64,000 bases of DNA from Acidobacteriaceae bacterium (GTDB lineage: Bacteria > Acidobacteriota > Terriglobia > Terriglobales > Acidobacteriaceae): contig PKUV01000165.1 of the NCBI GenBank assembly GCA_003131315.1, positions 1-64,000 of the forward strand, written 5' to 3'. Positions 2,103 to 56,575 of the stretch are shown in pieces. The translations under genes and the position numbers were made by a program. Positions within the stretch are counted from its first letter, which is position 1. Each line of letters opens with the position of its first letter. The notes beneath the pieces are model-generated. The model searched no databases. It saw only the letters and a list, made by a program, of their open reading frames with translations, and had not been told where the DNA came from.

Positions 2103-4019
2103 ATGGGCTCACGTTGTGGGATGAGGAACTTTTTTTGTGCCGCAATTTTTCTGTTGTCATCGTTTTCAGGTTTTGGGGCAAATGGTCCGACAGTCGCGCT
2201 CTCCGTGGATGCGTCGGAAGCGCCGCGCAAGATCTTCCACGCGCAATTGCGCATTCCGGCTAAGCCCGGGACACTCACGCTCTACTATCCGAAATGGATT
2301 CCCGGCGAGCACGGGCCGACGGGTCCGATCACGGACTTGACGGGGCTGAAGTTTACGGCGAGCGGAAAGACGCTGAAATGGCGGCGCGATCTGCTGGACG
2401 GTTTTACTTTTCACGTTGAAGTTCCGGCGGGCGAGAACGAAGTCACCGCGAATCTCGATTACGCTTCGCCCGCGTCGCATGAGGCTGGATACAGCGCCGG
2501 GATGGCCGCGACGGAAAAATTGTACATCGTCAACTGGAACACGCTGTTGCTGTATCCCGCCGGGGTCGGTTCCGATCAACTCACGTATAGCGCGAGCTTG
2601 CGGCTACCCGCGGGATGGAAGTTTGGGACGTCGCTGCATGTTTCCAATCAGGTGGGCAACGATAACGAGATTCATTTTGCGCCCGTTTCCTTGACCATGC
2701 TGGTGGATGGTCCGGTCATCGCGGGCGAGTATTTGAAAGTGGTGCCACTGACGCCGCCCACCGAAAATCCTCCCGCGGAACTCGATGTTGCGGCCGACAG
2801 TGCCGCCGCGCTCGATGCTCCGGAAGAAGTCTGGGAACATTACCGGAACCTGGTGAAGCAAGCGGGAATTCTGTTTGGCGCGCGGCACTACACCAACTAT
2901 CATTTTCTGCTGACCCTGAGCGATCACGTCGCGCATTTCGGATTGGAGCATCATGAATCGAATGACAGCCGCGTCGAAGAGCGGTCGTTGGTGGAAGAAG
3001 ACGGAAGGAAACTGACCGCTGGCCTTCTGCCGCACGAGTATGTGCATTCGTGGAACGGGAAGTACCGGCGTCCGGCGGATCTGGCGACGCCCGATTTCGA
3101 ACAGCCGATGCAGACCGACTTGCTATGGGTGTATGAGGGCCTGACGTCATACCTGGGAGATATGCTTGCAGCGCGGAGCGGCGAGCGGACGCCCGCGTTG
3201 GCTCGCGATGGGCTGGCGCAGATTGCGGCGGATCTGGATCATCGTTCGGGCCGGACCTGGCGCAATTTGCAGGATACGGCGGACGGCGTTCCCACCATGC
3301 AGGACGCTCCCCACGGGTGGCAAGATTATCGCCGGCCGCTCGATTATTACGATGAAGACGTGCTCACATGGCTGTGGGCGGACGTGATCATCAGGCAGCA
3401 AAGCAAGGGCGCGAAATCGTTGGACGATTTCTGCAAACTGTTTCATGGCGCGCCAAGCGGTCCGCCCATGGTGAAGACCTACGCCTTCGACGACGTGGTG
3501 AACGCGCTGAACCAGGTCGTTCCCTACGACTGGCGCGGGTTCTGGACGGAGCGGCTGTCCAACCATGGCCCGGGCGCCCCGCTCGGCGGAGTCGAAGGAA
3601 GCGGATGGAAGCTGGTGTACGACGAGTACCCTTCGGAACTGGATCGCGCCCAGGATCGCGACGGAGATCGCGACGGAGATCGCGACGGAAAGACGATCAA
3701 TGCGCATTACTCGGTGGGACTCGTGGCCGGGAGCGATGGCGTGATTCGGGATACGGTCGAGGGCATGCTTGCCGCGAAGGCCGGGATCGGGCCGGGGATG
3801 AAGATTGTCGCGGTGAACGGCCGCAGGTTTTCATCGGATGCCTGGCACGACGCCATCCGAGCCGCTAAGAGCAGTCCGTCGCCGATCGAGCTGATCGTCG
3901 AAAACACAGATTATTTCCGCGTCGTGAAACTCGATTATCACGGCGGCGAGAAGTATCCACACCTGGTGCGGGACGAGTCGAAGCCGGATCTGCTGACGGA
4001 AATTTATAGGGCGAAGTAA
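2103..4019 (+). CDS. Exported M61-family aminopeptidase with C-terminal PDZ domain
   Basis: Predicted zinc metallopeptidase of family M61 (glycyl aminopeptidase type), exported. An N-terminal signal peptide is visible (hydrophobic run NFFCAAIFLLSSFSGFGA). The zinc motif HEYVHSWNGK lies near residue 310, with the typical WVYEGLTSY glutamate ligand about 45 residues later. A PDZ domain occupies roughly residues 535-625 (LVAGSDGVIRDTVEGMLAAKAG, GMKIVAVNGR). ATG at 2103 was chosen because GGAGGGG precedes it closely; a TTG at 2064 is also in frame. A 12-bp unit is repeated in tandem near 3654-3690 and gives an Asp-Arg-Asp-Gly repeat just before the PDZ domain. Confidence 0.85.
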   Translation: MGSRCGMRNFFCAAIFLLSSFSGFGANGPTVALSVDASEAPRKIFHAQLRIPAKPGTLTLYYPKWIPGEHGPTGPITDLTGLKFTASGKTLKWRRDLLDGFTFHVEVPAGENEVTANLDYASPASHEAGYSAGMAATEKLYIVNWNTLLLYPAGVGSDQLTYSASLRLPAGWKFGTSLHVSNQVGNDNEIHFAPVSLTMLVDGPVIAGEYLKVVPLTPPTENPPAELDVAADSAAALDAPEEVWEHYRNLVKQAGILFGARHYTNYHFLLTLSDHVAHFGLEHHESNDSRVEERSLVEEDGRKLTAGLLPHEYVHSWNGKYRRPADLATPDFEQPMQTDLLWVYEGLTSYLGDMLAARSGERTPALARDGLAQIAADLDHRSGRTWRNLQDTADGVPTMQDAPHGWQDYRRPLDYYDEDVLTWLWADVIIRQQSKGAKSLDDFCKLFHGAPSGPPMVKTYAFDDVVNALNQVVPYDWRGFWTERLSNHGPGAPLGGVEGSGWKLVYDEYPSELDRAQDRDGDRDGDRDGKTINAHYSVGLVAGSDGVIRDTVEGMLAAKAGIGPGMKIVAVNGRRFSSDAWHDAIRAAKSSPSPIELIVENTDYFRVVKLDYHGGEKYPHLVRDESKPDLLTEIYRAK

Positions 4020-4036: not shown

Positions 4037-4071
4037 GGTTCGTATCGGGGCACCGCTTTAGCGATGCCGCA
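4037..4071 (-). repeat. CTAAAG-loop hairpin repeat, single copy
   Basis: On the minus strand this reads as a stem around the loop GCTAAAGC followed by a GATACGAA tail. It matches the two tandem copies at 38231-38296. It sits in the spacer between the convergent M61 peptidase and rnhB genes, where it could serve as a terminator or processing hairpin. Confidence 0.55.
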
Positions 4072-8478: not shown

Positions 8479-9204
8479 CTAGTCTTCCTTGAAATCCCCT
8501 TTTTGATAGAACTTATACCCGGAAATAATCGAGGTGATCAGCCCGTTGCCATACTGCGTGGAGTCATACAGGATGATGTACACGTGCAGAATTGCAAACA
8601 CCACGAAGCCCCAGGCAAACGCGTGGTGCCACATGCGCGTCGTAAACGATCCGCCCAGCAGCGGCAGCACCCAGCCGAACACGCGATTCAGGAAGCCTCC
8701 CGGATTGCTCTCCGAATACATCGCCATCCCCGTGAAGATCTGGCACCACCCCAGGAAGATGACAAACAAGGTGTAGGCGACGCCGCCCAGTGAATTGTGT
8801 CCCAGGTGTGCGTGCCCACGCTCAAGCCGCAGATAATCGGTGCCTTGCCGGAACAAATCTTTCCACCACTCCGGTCTCCAGACATACGGGAAGCCCGACC
8901 GCGAATATGCGTTGCCCATCCAGAACCAGTAGATCCGTGCCAGGAAACTGACCGTGAAAATCATCGCCGCGACGAAGTGAATCTGCCGCACGCGTCCCAT
9001 CACGAAGTGGCGCACCGCCTCCCCGCTCGGAGCCAGCAGCGGATGCGAGATATACAGCCCGGTCAGAAACAGCACAATCAGGCACGCGGCATTTACCCAG
9101 TGCGTGATCCGCACCGGCAACTGCCACACTAACTGCCGGCGGAAATAGTCCTCCGGGTGCAACGCTATTTCTTGCGGATCAAACTCGGGGACAGCGGTGG
9201 ACAT
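8479..9204 (-). CDS. hyaC: Ni/Fe-hydrogenase b-type cytochrome subunit
   Basis: A 241-residue membrane cytochrome b that anchors the hydrogenase and passes electrons to the quinone pool. Four hydrophobic segments are visible (starting around residues 33, 73, 140 and 190), with histidines placed to bind two hemes: RITHWVNA, QIHFVAAM, and MWHHAFAW plus the C-terminal HVYIILYDS. This matches the HyaC/HupC/HoxZ family. It follows hyaB after a 157-base gap filled by a 132-bp repeat element. Confidence 0.92.
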   Translation of the reverse strand: MSTAVPEFDPQEIALHPEDYFRRQLVWQLPVRITHWVNAACLIVLFLTGLYISHPLLAPSGEAVRHFVMGRVRQIHFVAAMIFTVSFLARIYWFWMGNAYSRSGFPYVWRPEWWKDLFRQGTDYLRLERGHAHLGHNSLGGVAYTLFVIFLGWCQIFTGMAMYSESNPGGFLNRVFGWVLPLLGGSFTTRMWHHAFAWGFVVFAILHVYIILYDSTQYGNGLITSIISGYKFYQKGDFKED

Positions 9205-9227
9205 AAGTTCCTCCAGGCTTTCTTCCT

Positions 9228-9359
9228 AGAGTGCGTTTCATAAATTCCTTTCGGCTCGGAGGGCTCGTCCCTCAGGGGCTAAAGCCCGCATTTTTCCAGG
9301 CCCTAAACGGCACGGCTAAAGCCGTGCCCTACCCAAAACCGATTCATGGAACACGCTCT
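9228..9359. mobile_element. 132-bp MITE-like element, copy A (hyaB-hyaC spacer)
   Basis: Begins agagtgcgtttcataaa and ends tcatggaacacgctct, so the ends are imperfect inverted repeats. The interior contains two hairpins with the CTAAAG-type loop: ctcaggggctaaagccc and gcacggctaaagccgtgc. Length and layout equal the copies at 20161-20292 and 55801-55932. No coding capacity. It fills the spacer inside the hydrogenase operon. Confidence 0.75.
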
Positions 9360-9361
9360 AC

Positions 9362-11083
9362 CTACCGCACCTTGATCTCCGCCAGTTTCTCTCCATTCGG
9401 CCCGAACACATGCGAAGCGCAAGCCAGGCAGGGATCGAAGGAATGAATCGTGCGGAGGATTTCGAGTGGCCGCTTCGGGTCCGCCAGCGGCGTATTCAGC
9501 AGCGCCGACTCATACGCCCCATGCTGCCCCTTGCTGTCCTTCGGCGACGCATTCCACGTCGAAGGCACGACGATCTGATAGTTCTCGATCTTCGCGTTCT
9601 TGATGTGAATCCAGTGAGCCAGCGCGCCGCGCGGCGCCTCGGTGAACCCGTAGCCCTTGGCTTCGGCCGGCCACGTCGATGGTTCCCAGCGCGCCGTGTC
9701 CGCCGTCGCCGAGTCTCCTGCCTTCAGATTCGCGATCAACTTGTCGTACTCCGCCATCAGCCAGTGCACGCACAGCTTCGTCTCAAGTCCGCGGGCCGCC
9801 GTGCGGCCAAGCGTCGAGAACAACGCCGTCGCCGGCACTTTCAACGCGCCCAGCGCCTCGGTGACCACATCCTTATACTCCGTCTTTCCGCTGGCAAAGC
9901 CGACCAGCATGCGCGCCAGAGGCCCCACCTCCATCGCATTGCCCTTCCAGCGCGGCGCCTTCAGCCACGAATACTTCGCGTTCTCATCCAATTGCTTGTA
10001 TGGCGGCTTCGGCCCGCTGTACTTGGGAACCGTCACGCCATCCCAGGGATGCAGCGCGCCCTTGCCCTCCGGATACTCGTACCAGGAGTGCGCCACTTCT
10101 TCCTGCACCTGACCCGCGTCGGTCAAATCGAGCGGCAGCACTTCACTCAGGTTCTTGTTCAGGATTACCCCGCGCGGCATGCGGAACTGGCTCACGTCGC
10201 CAATGCCATTCTGCGGAATATCGCCGTAGGACATGTAGTTCCCGAGCCCGCCGCCGATCGCCGCCCAGTCCGTATAGAACGACGCCACTGCCAGCAAGTC
10301 GGGAATGTACATGTTCTCGACCACCTGCATCGCGTCCTGGATCAGGCCCTTCACGTAGTTCAGCCTCTCCATATTGATGGCGTTGTCACTTTGCATCGAG
10401 ATCGCCGACGCCATCCCGCCCACCAGATAATTCGGGTGCGGGTTCTTCCCGCCGAAGATGGTGTGGATCTTGATGATCTCCTTCTGCCACTTCAGCGCTT
10501 CCAGATAATGTGCCACCGCCATCAGGTTCGCTTCCGGCGGCAATTTGTACGCCGGATGCCCCCAGTAAGCGTTCTGGAAGAGGCCCAACTGCCCCGAGTC
10601 CACAAACTTCTTGAGCGTGCCGGCGAGGTCCTTGAAGTATCCAGTGCTGGCGAGCGGCCACGAGGGCGAAACTTTTTGCGCCAGCGCAGAGGTTGCCGCC
10701 GGGTCCGCCTTCAGTGCCGAAACAATGTCCACCCAGTCGAGTGCGTGCAGATGGTAGAAGTGGATCACGTGGTCCTGCACCTGCTGCGTCAGGAACATGA
10801 TGTTGCGAATGATCTCGGCGTTCGGAGGCACTTTGACGTCCAGCGCGTTCTCCACCGCCCGCACCGAGGCCAGCGCATGCACCGTGGTGCACACGCCGCA
10901 GATGCGCTCGCAGAACGCCCAGGCATCGCGCGGGTCGCGGCCCTTCAGGATCACCTCCAGGCCGCGCCACATCGTTCCGGAAGACATGGCGTCTTTAATA
11001 ACGCCGCGCTCGTCCAGCATCGCTTCCACCCGCAGGTGGCCCTCGATGCGAGTGACGGGATCAACCACGACTCGAGTCGCCAT
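9362..11083 (-). CDS. hyaB: Ni/Fe-hydrogenase large subunit (group 1)
   Basis: Catalytic subunit carrying the NiFe centre. The N-terminal ligand motif [10 protein letters not shown] (Cys62 and Cys65) and the C-terminal motif DPCLACASH (Cys552, Cys555) supply the four metal-binding cysteines. After the final His there is a 15-residue tail starting VFGPNGEKL, the peptide normally cut off by the maturation protease, which is encoded two genes downstream. At 573 residues it has normal length. Only 3 bases separate it from hyaA. No hyp accessory genes lie within the window, so cofactor assembly must be encoded elsewhere. Confidence 0.95.
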
Positions 11084-11086
11084 GCC

Positions 11087-12190
11087 TTACCTTCCTTCCT
11101 TGTCCGGAGCTTCCTCTTTTTTTTGCGTCGCGCGCCGCGCCATCGACGAGATAAAGTGCAGCCCAACGCCGACCATCGCCGCTCCCGCCGCCACGGTTCC
11201 GATCTCGTTCGGCGTGGACTCAATCCCCGGCACCGGAATCGACGTCAGCCGCTCGTAGAACGGACCGTTGTCCCAGAAGTTCTCCTCGCTGCAGCCGATG
11301 CATCCGTGTCCCGAGCCAATCGGATACGACACGCCGTTGTTCCACTTGAACGTCGGACACGAGTTGTAGGTGGTCGGTCCGCGGCAGCCCATCTTGTACA
11401 GGCACCAGCCCTTCTTCGCTCCATCGTCATCCCAGGACTCGACAAACTGCCCCGCATCGAAGAACGAACGCCGGTAGCACTTGTCGTGGATGCGCTGCCC
11501 GTAGAACATCTTCGGACGTCCGTAGCGATCCAGCTCCGGCAGCGCGCCAAAGGTCAAAATGTAAGTCAGGACGCCGGTCATCACTTCCGCAATCGGCGGA
11601 CATCCCGGCACATTCACGATCGCCTTGTGCGAAATCAATTTATGCACTGGCTTCGCGCCGGTCGGATTCGGCTTGGCCGCCTGCACGCATCCATTCGACG
11701 CGCACGAGCCCCAGGCAATCACCGCCTTCGCGTTCTCCGCCGTCTCTTGCAGAATGCTCAGGAAGGTCTCCCCGCCCACCGTGCAGTACACGCCGCCATC
11801 GGCCGTCGGAGCATTCCCCTCCACCGCCAGCACGTACTGGCCGGCATAGTCCTTCATGATGCGTTTGCGATTCTCCTCGGCCTGGAAGCCCGCCGCCGCC
11901 ATCAGAGTGTCGTCGTAGTCGAGCGAGATCATGTTCAGAATCACATCCTGCGCGATCGGGTGCGACGAGCGGATGAACGACTCGCTACAGCACGTGCACT
12001 CCAAGCCATGCAGCCAAATCACTGGCAGACGGGGCTTGGTTTCCAGCGCCTCCACAATTTGCGGAACGACCGTCGCTTCCAGTCCCATGGCCGCCGCCAT
12101 CATCGTGCAGAACTTCACAAACCGGCGGCGATCAATTCCATGCTCTCGCAGGACATCGTAGGTAGTGGCTTTGCGCAGGAGACTTCCCAT
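11087..12190 (-). CDS. hyaA: Ni/Fe-hydrogenase small subunit, oxygen-tolerant type
   Basis: Electron-transfer subunit with three iron-sulfur clusters. It starts at ATG 12190 (GAGGG just upstream), giving a Tat signal with RRRFVKFC near residues 21-28. The proximal-cluster cysteines are Cys65, Cys67, Cys68 (ECTCCSES), Cys163, Cys168 (WGSCASNGC) and Cys197 (VPGCPP). From memory of E. coli HyaA, these six align at a constant offset with the six cysteines of its oxygen-protecting 4Fe-3S cluster. The distal and medial motifs ([32 protein letters not shown]) and a C-terminal membrane anchor ([15 protein letters not shown]) are present. First gene of the operon. Confidence 0.95.
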
Positions 12191-20083: not shown

Positions 20084-20160
20084 TTGGGGCAGGACTTACA
20101 GCATTCTAAAGCAACGTTCTGATACGGAACTCGGATTGTTCACGTAAATCGGACGTTTCT

Positions 20161-20292
20161 AGAGCGTGTTTCATATATGCGTGTGTGGGGAAGAAGGCTG
20201 CTCCCCTCAGGGGCTAAAGCCCCCATTCATGTGGCTCGAAACGGCGCGGCTGAAGCCGCGCCCCTTCAAAGACCATTTATGAAACACGCTCT
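20161..20292. mobile_element. 132-bp MITE-like element, copy B
   Basis: The clearest copy: left end agagcgtgtttcatata, right end tttatgaaacacgctct, i.e. inverted repeats of about 16 bases. The interior has ctcaggggctaaagccc and gcgcggctgaagccgcgc hairpins. Compared with copies A and C, the second stem replaces the pairs of gcacggc/gccgtgc with gcgcggc/gccgcgc, a compensatory change. Confidence 0.8.
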
Positions 20293-20308
20293 AACAATGT
20301 CGGCGGTG

Positions 20309-38198: not shown

Positions 38199-38296
38199 GC
38201 CCCTAAAGGGGCGTCCGATTTTCGAACTTACGGTATCGCTAAAGCGATACCCTGATACGAATCCGGCATCGCTAAAGCGATGCCCTGATACGAATC
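38199..38296. repeat. CTAAAG-loop hairpins, tandem 33-bp units
   Basis: Two adjacent 33-bp units: ggtatcgctaaagcgatacc and ggcatcgctaaagcgatgcc, each followed by ctgatacgaat. The T-A pair of the first stem is a C-G pair in the second, a compensatory change. A separate gcccctaaaggggc hairpin precedes them at 38200-38215. A third copy is at 4037-4071. Confidence 0.75.
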
Positions 38297-50110: not shown

Positions 50111-50114
50111 CATA

Positions 50115-50280
50115 TAGCGTGTTTCATAAACGGTTCTTTGAAGGGGCGCGGCTTCACAGATTGCTGAAAGACTCGATTTTGTTCTTGCTTTTGGGTGGCG
50201 CAGCGGTTCACCGCTGCGATCACTGGCTCGTTTTCAGCGACGGCTTCAGCCGTGCCGCTGCGATGTCGGGCCACTCAGTT
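50115..50280. mobile_element. MITE-like element fragment, copy D
   Basis: Begins agcgtgtttcataaacgg then tttgaaggggcgcggcttca, which equals the right end of copy B read on the other strand. The remainder differs and the other terminus is missing. Further hairpins (gcagcggttcaccgctgc; cgacggcttcagccg) follow up to the stop codon of the next minus-strand gene. Confidence 0.55.
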
Positions 50281-55002: not shown

Positions 55003-55797
55003 CTATCGAAATAGATCGTTCTTCGCGGGCCGAATCAGTTCCCGCGCTCCACCGCTTCCTCGGCGGTAAGAATAGCCTCGAATGATGCACGCGGGAGTGC
55101 CTGCCAGCTTGCCGCAGACCAGTCCCGCCGCACAAGCCAGTTCGTCCGCTACCGCGTCCACCGTCGCGTGCAGCGAGTAGCCGTGCGGATCGCGACGTCC
55201 GCGGTAGTCGACCAGAGGCTGTATCCCGGCGGCGCCAATCGCCACTTCCGTCAAGCCTTCCCGCCACGGACGCCCGAAACTATCGCTGACGATGACCGCG
55301 ATCTCGATCCCAAGCTGCTTCTTCAACTCCCGCCGCAACCTCGCCGCGGAGCGATCCGGATTCAGCGGCAGCAACACCGCGTGCCGCCCACCATCCACGT
55401 TTGACACATCCACGCCACTGTTCGCGCAAATAAATCCGTGCTTCGTCTCGGTGATCAGCACATTTCGCTTTCTCCGCACGATTCGACGACTCTCACGCAC
55501 CGCCAATTCACGGACGCGTGCGTCGAGCCCGTAGCGTCGAGCCCAAACCCGTGAAGCCGCCGCAGGCCGGATTTCATCAAGCGCCACCAGCGCGCCTTCC
55601 GCCTTCGAAACAACTTTGTGCTTCACCACCAGGATGTCGCCATCCTGAAAGCGCAGCCCCAGGCTTCGCGCCGCTGCCAACAGCCTCGCGCACAACGATT
55701 CTCCGGCGCGGATTTCTCCACTGACCGCGACCGGAAGAATGCGAACTTCCCCAGCCGCGCGCTTGCCGATCTTTGATCCCACGCTAGGCCCGGTCAT
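55003..55797 (-). CDS. cofE: F420-0:gamma-glutamyl ligase
   Basis: 264 residues. Adds glutamates to F420-0. Typical blocks: VVKHKVVSKAEGALVAL, GFICANSGVDVSNVDGG and SDSFGRPWREGLTEVAIG. Starts ATG 55797; the cofH start lies 9 bases past its stop. It lacks the C-terminal nitroreductase domain of actinobacterial FbiB. A MITE-like element separates it from cofC. Confidence 0.94.
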   Translation of the reverse strand: MTGPSVGSKIGKRAAGEVRILPVAVSGEIRAGESLCARLLAAARSLGLRFQDGDILVVKHKVVSKAEGALVALDEIRPAAASRVWARRYGLDARVRELAVRESRRIVRRKRNVLITETKHGFICANSGVDVSNVDGGRHAVLLPLNPDRSAARLRRELKKQLGIEIAVIVSDSFGRPWREGLTEVAIGAAGIQPLVDYRGRRDPHGYSLHATVDAVADELACAAGLVCGKLAGTPACIIRGYSYRRGSGGARELIRPAKNDLFR

Positions 55798-55800
55798 GGT

Positions 55801-55932
55801 AGAGATGGTTTCACAAATATCCTCCAGCCCGGAAGGCTCGTCCCTCAGGGGCTAAAGCCCACATTCTTCCAGGTCCTGAACGGCACGGCTAAAGCCGTGC
55901 CCTACCCAAGACCGATTTATAAAATCAGATCT
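55801..55932. mobile_element. 132-bp MITE-like element, copy C (cofC-cofE spacer)
   Basis: Same length and layout as copies A and B: ctcaggggctaaagccc and gcacggctaaagccgtgc hairpins at the same offsets, but more degenerate ends (agagatggtttcacaaa / tttataaaatcagatct). Its right end overlaps the cofC stop codon (55931-55933). Confidence 0.75.
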
Positions 55933-56575
55933 AGACCTGATTCCGTCTGCTCAGGTTCCAGCTTCGCAGCAGCTTCTGCGATCGCCGTTCTCCGCTGGCG
56001 CGGGCGAGTTCGCGGAGATCTTCGGGACGATCGACATCCCGCGCAATCCCCGGCAGTTCGAGCACAACACAAGGCAGGCCCGTTGCCTTCGCCGCGGCCA
56101 GGTGCGGCAAGAAGCTGTCGTTCCCGAACCGAAGCGGGAACAAATCACCCGGAGATCGCCAGGCTGCATTCGTACCGCGCCCGGCCGCGTCCGGCACCAG
56201 TACCGCACCACCGGGAGGAGCGCAATCCACGATCTTCTGCAGTTCCGAACTGTCGATCAAAGGAATATCCGCCGGAACCACCAAGGTGCTCTCCGCTCCA
56301 CGTTCTGTGCACACAGCAGTTGCCATCTCGATGGCGCTAGTCTCTCCGGAGTTCAGGTCGTCGGCAACGACCTCGAAATTGAAACGCGCCGCTAAATCGC
56401 GCGCAAACGAATCGCTCGTCACCACCGCAACGGCCGGCCGGCTTTGCCAGCGCGCCAGTGCTTGCAGCACGTCCTCGCACATCGCCCGCGCCAGCGCGAA
56501 ACGTTCTTCCGGACTCAAAATAGGAGAGAGCCGCTGCTTGGCGTCAACGAGATTTTTTACGGGAACCAAAATCAT
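55931..56575 (-). CDS. cofC: 2-phospho-L-lactate (or PEP) guanylyltransferase
   Basis: 214 residues. Activates 2-phospholactate, or phosphoenolpyruvate in bacteria (FbiD), with GTP. N-terminal LVPVKNLVDAKQRLSPIL is the nucleotidyltransferase signature, followed by LVVPADIPLIDSSEL. Overlaps cofD by 4 bases. The substrate (phosphoenolpyruvate versus phospholactate) cannot be read from motifs here. Confidence 0.9.
   Translation of the reverse strand: MILVPVKNLVDAKQRLSPILSPEERFALARAMCEDVLQALARWQSRPAVAVVTSDSFARDLAARFNFEVVADDLNSGETSAIEMATAVCTERGAESTLVVPADIPLIDSSELQKIVDCAPPGGAVLVPDAAGRGTNAAWRSPGDLFPLRFGNDSFLPHLAAAKATGLPCVVLELPGIARDVDRPEDLRELARASGERRSQKLLRSWNLSRRNQV

Follow-up and report, generated by a model that had tools for sequence, protein, structure and literature searches.

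Correia/NEMIS, RUP and ERIC elements, as treated in the accessible part of PMC10969869, are short repeats without an ORF that have inverted ends, lie between genes, fold stably and insert into one another. REP, BIME and REPIN doublets, which are associated with RAYTs, consist of two hairpins at fixed spacing (accessible parts of PMC3733652 and PMC3116915). Among autonomous elements, the IS427 group of the IS5 family has two overlapping ORFs with a conserved frameshift motif, and in the rows of PMC3281130 available to us its members measure 832-865 bp and have 2-bp direct repeats (DR), except ISPha1 with 4 bp. Here, we describe a repeat that resembles Correia/NEMIS, RUP and ERIC in all of the features named above and differs from them, as far as they are described there, in that its candidate partner is IS5 and not IS630, its interior is a REP doublet, and different interiors share the same ends. 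We are highly confident that the four copies, A-D, in the window (the whole 64,000-nucleotide stretch analysed, from an Acidobacteriaceae bacterium) belong to a MITE family with IS5-matching terminal inverted repeats, that they would be moved in trans by an IS427-like IS5 transposase, and that their interior is a captured REP doublet. According to this proposal, the 18-bp, TA-bounded terminal inverted repeats would be recognized by the transposase of an IS5-family insertion sequence (IS) of an IS427-like group, which would move the MITE in trans by DDE chemistry into a TA, most often CTAG or TTAG, and duplicate that TA at insertion; the non-coding interior, a REP doublet like those flanking a RAYT-type Y1 gene of this genome, would have been captured between IS5 ends. 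The family is known in kind, and its REP-doublet interior makes it a new one, of chimeric build; five exact end or REP strings had no match in open-access full text, and no description of the family appeared in the titles or abstract openings of the literature searched.

Copies A (9228-9359), B (20161-20292) and C (55801-55932; locus L017), all on the + strand, each measure 132 bp, confirming the three inverted-repeat copies that a sequence-only reading of the window had reported at these positions. A TA stands on each border of all three, so that the unit is best written as 134 bp, at 9227-9360, 20160-20293 and 55800-55933. Copy A lies between minus-strand ORFs for Ni_hydr_CYTB (8479-9204) and a NiFe-hydrogenase large subunit (9362-11083), and copy C between an F420-ligase-like ORF (55003-55797) and a CofC-like ORF (55931-56575), both also on the minus strand. 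Two REP hairpins occupy the interior: hairpin 1 (CCTCAGGGGCTAAAGCCC in A, + strand) at 9270-9287 in A, 20205-20222 in B and 55843-55860 in C, and hairpin 2 (CGGCACGGCTAAAGCCGTGCC in A, + strand) at 9308-9328, 20242-20262 and 55881-55901, respectively. The ends that had been quoted as common to the copies hold almost exactly for B, the most intact copy, which differs from the IS5 end TAGAGCGTGTTTCATAAA at 1 and 0 positions, but they are degenerate in A and C; counted against the nearest IS5 end, mismatches among the 18 bases are 2+2 in A, 1+0 in B and 2+3 in C. Judged from the window by itself, the end motif at up to 3 mismatches does not rise significantly above chance (8 matches against 4.87 expected, with 9 of 100 shuffles reaching 8). 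The interior motifs do, with 9 matches against 0.19 expected for hairpin 2 and 3 against 0.01 for hairpin 1.

Fragment D, previously placed at 50115-50280, is composite. Its first part (50113-50156, - strand) is a B-like MITE right end that reaches the second REP hairpin, found as a BLAST match with 93% identity over B-query bases 91-133, but the remainder is a different small repeat (50157-50240, no strand assigned, right boundary approximate), which starts with CAGATTGCTGAAAGACTC, holds a GCGCAGCGGTTCACCGCTGCG REP and cuts D in the loop of hairpin 2. Both this nested repeat and the REP-doublet nature of the two hairpins had been missed in the sequence-only reading. Repeats with CAGGCTGCGGAAAAACTC-like ends interrupt the same loop in loci L039, L070 and L074; they span 120 bp between ends in L039 and L070 and 42 bp in L074, with ends CAGGYTGCGGAAAAACTC and a TTNA-like 4-base repeat (compare window 50157-50240). 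L070 has a third repeat, with ends GTGTGCGTGAGAACTYG, within the loop of hairpin 1. These loop-inserted repeats resemble the IS elements targeting REPs that are described in the accessible part of PMC1525189.

A genome-wide search, which had been named as a check on the element, recovered further copies by both BLAST and end pattern in the window's own assembly (G000; 6.0 Mb, 194 contigs). Query B gave at least 42 BLAST matches and query A at least 41; the best 40 candidates were scored per query, making these and the following copy counts lower bounds, and some counted sites are halves of one interrupted copy, such as two on contig C141 near 46.9 kb. End pattern TAGARCNNGTYTCATAAA at no more than 1 mismatch occurs at 37 sites, against 0 for the reversed control. 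Merging the two BLAST queries with the end pattern yields at least 63 sites, 54 of them with an interior match (22 of these also with an end at no more than 1 mismatch) and 9 with an end only. Of the distinct interior copies, we read 37: both ends are present at up to 4 mismatches in 18, one such end in 9 and one end at 5 mismatches in 4, while neither end is present in 6; an end at up to 4 mismatches occurs in 6 of 3321 random 60-bp stretches. The nine one-end copies retain the right end in eight cases and the left in one. Long matches to A in this genome are 79-90% identical, and the A site is empty in relatives, so gene conversion is not needed to explain the equal length of the copies. Two larger end-bounded segments of the same genome were considered as transposase carriers and rejected: L070 is a 434-bp segment consisting of a MITE with two nested repeats, and L080 has MITE-type ends 981 bp apart (538-1518) around a 178-aa lipoprotein-like ORF, with no transposase recognized by eye, making it a possible passenger-carrying element.

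Using the 901-bp region around A as query, we found that element A is absent in all seven genus relatives that match both flanks (G003, G007, G008, G009, G016, G018 and G019). The window minus the element, with one TA kept, predicts a spacer of 16 bases from the upstream motif to the downstream gene end, and the relatives have 15-16 bases in four cases, 4 and 0 in two and 139 in G019. Two of the six short spacers are thus 12-16 bases shorter than predicted, and the flanks are 78-92% identical, so that the junction at this site is not placeable to the base. In G019 (locus L104), an unrelated repeat of ~135 bp occupies the orthologous intergenic spot; a MITE or a match to the interior lies within ~1 kb of it in both G019 and G016. 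A base-exact junction is provided by locus L154, where a type-I MITE (676-809) interrupts the right end of a second one: written with one TA, the target is a normal MITE end, ...TTTATGAGACTAGTTCT, and TA stands on both sides after insertion (...GAGAC-TA-GTTCT becoming ...GAGACTA-MITE-TAGTTCT). The check for target-site duplication thus turned up a duplicated TA at this one nested insertion. Across all fetched loci, 44 of 54 REP-type copies have TA at both borders, the four-base target being CTAG in 12 of the 44 and TTAG in 11. The further copies genome-wide, the empty A sites and the TA duplication support the interpretation of A-D as a MITE, that is, a short (132-134 bp), non-coding element with terminal inverted repeats, found in dispersed copies with empty sites at A and a TA duplicated at one nested insertion.

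The ends also point to a candidate mobilizer for this abundant repeat of soil Acidobacteria. With the DUF4096 profile (PF13340), 10 of the 20 genomes searched yielded a total of 20 matches, 4 of which score under the family cut-off. L268 (G019) and L277 (G001) are 898-bp ISs with ends TAGAGCGTGTTTCATAAA and TAGAGCGTATTTCATAAA, and L273 (G010) is a 911-bp IS with ends TAGAGCGTGTTTCAAAAA and TAGAGCGAGTTTCAAAAA; one end is present at L270 and at L282 (the latter below cut-off), two decayed ends are present at L279, and a matching end pair was not seen at the remaining 14 PF13340 loci. A 901-bp copy with both 18-bp ends perfect lies at 3660-4560 of L291, an IMG/VR contig. A transposase gene bounded by the ends of the MITE, another feature that the sequence-only reading had proposed to look for, therefore exists in related genomes, in the form of IS5-family genes. 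In L268 and L291, Pfam places DUF4096 on orf1 and DDE_Tnp_1 on orf2. Against NCBIfam NF033580 (transpos_IS5_3, 258 positions), orf1 of L268 covers 3-108 with 96.1 bits, below the cut-off of 110, and orf2 covers 114-258 with 135.7 bits; the partner IS encodes a DDE transposase of IS5 type. Its two ORFs overlap, and the shared stretch contains A6/A7G in L268 and L277; L291 showed no run of this kind there. In the ~18-bp terminal repeats, IS5 transposase domains, TA borders, two overlapping ORFs and slippery A run in several copies, the partner is like the IS427-group members IS1248, ISPpa2 and ISPaes1 as given in the available part of PMC3281130, whereas its length of 898-911 bp is above the 832-865 bp of the IS427-group rows seen there. 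Judged by these sequence features, it appears to be IS427-like. Its transposase shares ~47% aa identity or less with the listed plasmid relatives, and one unlisted record falls in the 80-90% band.

The 86 collected MITEs have 172 ends, 126 of which differ from an IS5 end at no more than 2 of 18 bases, a comparison that is partly circular because the MITE set was collected by end pattern. G001 contains both the IS and MITEs, with identical ends. A class-wide tblastn for IS5 relatives found them in 44 of 299 genomes at E<=1e-20. An end of the TAGA..NNRTYTCATAAA kind is present at one or both borders in six of 30 tblastn loci (L356, L374, L379, L380, L381 and L385); in L374, L379, L380, L381 and L385 the ends are of the TAGA..NNRTCTCATAAA type, and both ends of L356 read TAGAGCTGGTTTCATAAA, which is the variant closest to copy C and is also present in copies L006 and L021. 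Others among the 30 have ends such as TAGAAGCTATTTCAAAAC, and in several no TA-bounded pair was found. In G000, tblastn found no IS5 relative at E<=1e-20 among the best 11 of 26 candidates scored, and the sole PF13340 match, L274, has ends other than the MITE ends. The MITE thus shares its ends with an autonomous element in related genomes, whereas the searches of G000 turned up no such IS; the copies in the window are therefore probably relics, or stranded. The earlier suggestion of a non-coding element served by a transposase in trans is supported and can be narrowed to an IS5 candidate. We infer that the IS5 transposase acts on the MITE in trans. The MITE as an internally deleted IS5 was rejected, a blastn of 86 interiors against 10 ISs having returned 12-mers only.

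A scan of genome contigs for paired ends returned 35 loci, 34 labelled as belonging to the phylum Acidobacteria and 1 as a planctomycete bin. The REP type accounts for 14 (124-136 bp), 16 are 115 bp, four are 122 bp and the planctomycete locus is 133 bp; L155, one of the four 122-bp loci, appears to be of the 115-bp kind but lengthened by an assembly gap. The REP motif had no match in the 115-, 122- and 133-bp interiors (6-8 mismatches of 17). End variants of the family include GAGCGTGTTTCAT, GAGCTGGTTTCAT and GAACTGGTCTCAT, and several genomes are dominated by one: GAGCGTGTTTCAT at 17 of 18 sites in G027, GAACTGGTCTCAT at 14 of 19 in G024 and GAACCGGTTTCAT at 12 of 20 in the planctomycete genome G032, with 0 in each reversed control. 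Variants are mixed in the genus genomes G025, G030 and G033 and in G000. The planctomycete locus (L163, G032), with its different 133-bp interior, also carries a 16S rRNA gene. Eight elements were folded (z -3.4 to -8.8): none of 200 shuffles was as stable as the native sequence in seven of them, and a single one was in L138. That the same ends enclose several equally structured interiors makes it testable whether a MITE interior is passive filler or is selected for folding.

The interior consists of a CTCAG-hairpin, a spacer and an 8-bp hairpin with a 4-base loop, often followed by C(T/C)ACCCAAAA and in other copies by CTTCCC or CCTTCA. Doublets of the same layout lie on both sides of a Y1 transposase ORF in L099 (G000). 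A second hairpin occurs 20-22 bp downstream in 28 of 31 CTCAGG doublets, most of which belong to the MITEs, and in all 6 CTCAGC doublets (own-genome loci), two of which are those flanking the Y1 ORF in L099; as a control, a hairpin anywhere 5-49 bp downstream was found at 185 of 4000 random positions. With its two hairpins, its fixed spacing and the layout of doublets bordering a Y1 transposase ORF, the interior, and the interior only, is like the RAYT-linked REP/BIME/REPIN doublets of the accessible descriptions (PMC3733652, PMC3116915); unlike them, the MITE doublet is enclosed by DDE-transposase ends, and its hairpins 1 and 2 differ in sequence. Given the layout common to the MITE and the Y1 borders of L099, and an interior without an IS match, the element is best read, from its sequence, as IS5 ends around a RAYT-type REP doublet, which would link two repeat systems usually handled separately, IS-derived MITEs and RAYT REPs.

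Both the ends and the hairpins keep their pairing. The end helix is paired in 90.9% of cells over 47 REP-type copies, and ends plus both hairpins show double (compensatory) changes in 13 of 31 pairs, with a covariation score of 0.192 against 0.096 in shuffles and 0.024-0.059 in slid controls; the two hairpins alone show 5 of 13 pairs with double changes and a score of 0.109 against 0.047 in shuffles. Kinship among copies can inflate these measures other than the count of further pair types, which is within the shuffle range (reached by 33 of 500 shuffles for ends plus hairpins and 177 of 500 for hairpins alone). The hairpin-1 pair drawn between columns 55 and 68 is unpaired in 40 of 45 sequences, leaving four pairs in this stem and not five.

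One extension of this reading is a two-engine chimera, spreading by DDE chemistry through its ends and by Y1 chemistry through its hairpins, in which a structured interior of near-fixed length would be required. Such a requirement is suggested by the use of the same ends by elements of ~115, 122, 133 and 134 bp with different, strongly folded interiors; we consider this chimera doubtful. Less probable still is that the moving unit is the internal REP doublet itself, spread by a RAYT (Y1) transposase, with the outer repeats incidental. G000 has 11 Y1_Tnp matches, the Y1 ORF of L099 is bordered by doublets of the same layout, and the 6 of 37 interior copies with neither end suggest that the doublet may also move or persist alone. 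However, hairpin 2 of the MITE was found at none of the 11 Y1 loci at up to 4 mismatches, and a hairpin-1-like motif only at L093 and L099. The outer ends, moreover, are kept paired, match IS5 ends and enclose interiors without the REP motif in other genomes (115, 122 and 133 bp), which argues that the ends define the mobile unit. REP/RAYT as the sole mobilizer is therefore not favoured, though the interior belongs to the REP/RAYT type. Palindromes lie on both sides of the Y1 gene in L090, L091, L095, L099 and L100, each with its own arm sequence, and a palindrome resembling that of L095 is present in the window at 4049-4069 and 38264-38284.

Full-length copies in G000 lie outside ORFs of at least 100 aa in 19 of 20 cases, against 684 of 806 same-length random stretches inside, with context taken from the longest nearby ORFs; 13 of the 20 are between co-directional ORFs. 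Three copies, L007, L017 (copy C) and L056, adjoin an ORF of at least 214 aa whose stop is the TAG made of the target TA plus the first G of the element; in copy C it terminates the CofC-like ORF. An intact element starts TAG and would therefore supply a stop when it enters a TAA or TAG stop codon at the TA; such stop-preserving insertion may explain the ORF-end pattern. Surviving copies would be intergenic because insertions there are tolerated. A regulatory element maintained by the host (a 3'-UTR, mRNA-processing or attenuator element) and kept by selection between operon genes would fit the same intergenic and co-directional setting, as well as the strong fold of the eight elements and the compensatory changes that keep the hairpins paired. 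We regard this as very improbable, since copy A, the one site compared, is missing from all seven relatives, no terminator or promoter consensus was found around A, an Rfam scan of seven loci matched no family at the elements and only the 16S gene near the planctomycete copy, and the intergenic bias would also arise if insertions that disrupt genes are purged.

IS630 likewise typically duplicates TA and uses CTAG-like targets, and RUP elements combine TA duplication with a link to IS630. Movement by an IS630/Tc1-mariner-type transposase with a TA target, as for RUP elements, was a first guess that accords with these targets, with the IS630 relatives present in G000 and with an IS630 remnant (L190, G023) ending in TAGAACTCATCTCTAAAA, 3 mismatches from the end pattern, but it is the least credible of the readings considered: of 42 DDE_3 loci (30 in the genus and 12 elsewhere, some of them truncated at a contig end), not one is bounded by MITE ends, leaving no RUP-like match of ends to an IS630 element, six well-delimited IS630 elements have ends that differ from every MITE end at 7 or more of the 18 bases, and IS5 elements with 0-2 mismatches to MITE ends exist.

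Sequences of both kinds, IS and MITE, are also found on IMG/VR contigs. In L291, the IS5 copy sits between ORFs matching the PHROGs major head protein and head-tail adaptor families. L345 (21 kb, putatively viral) contains three REP-type MITEs, at 3632-3763, 10634-10765 and 11449-11579, with GAAGC..ATCTCAT-like ends.
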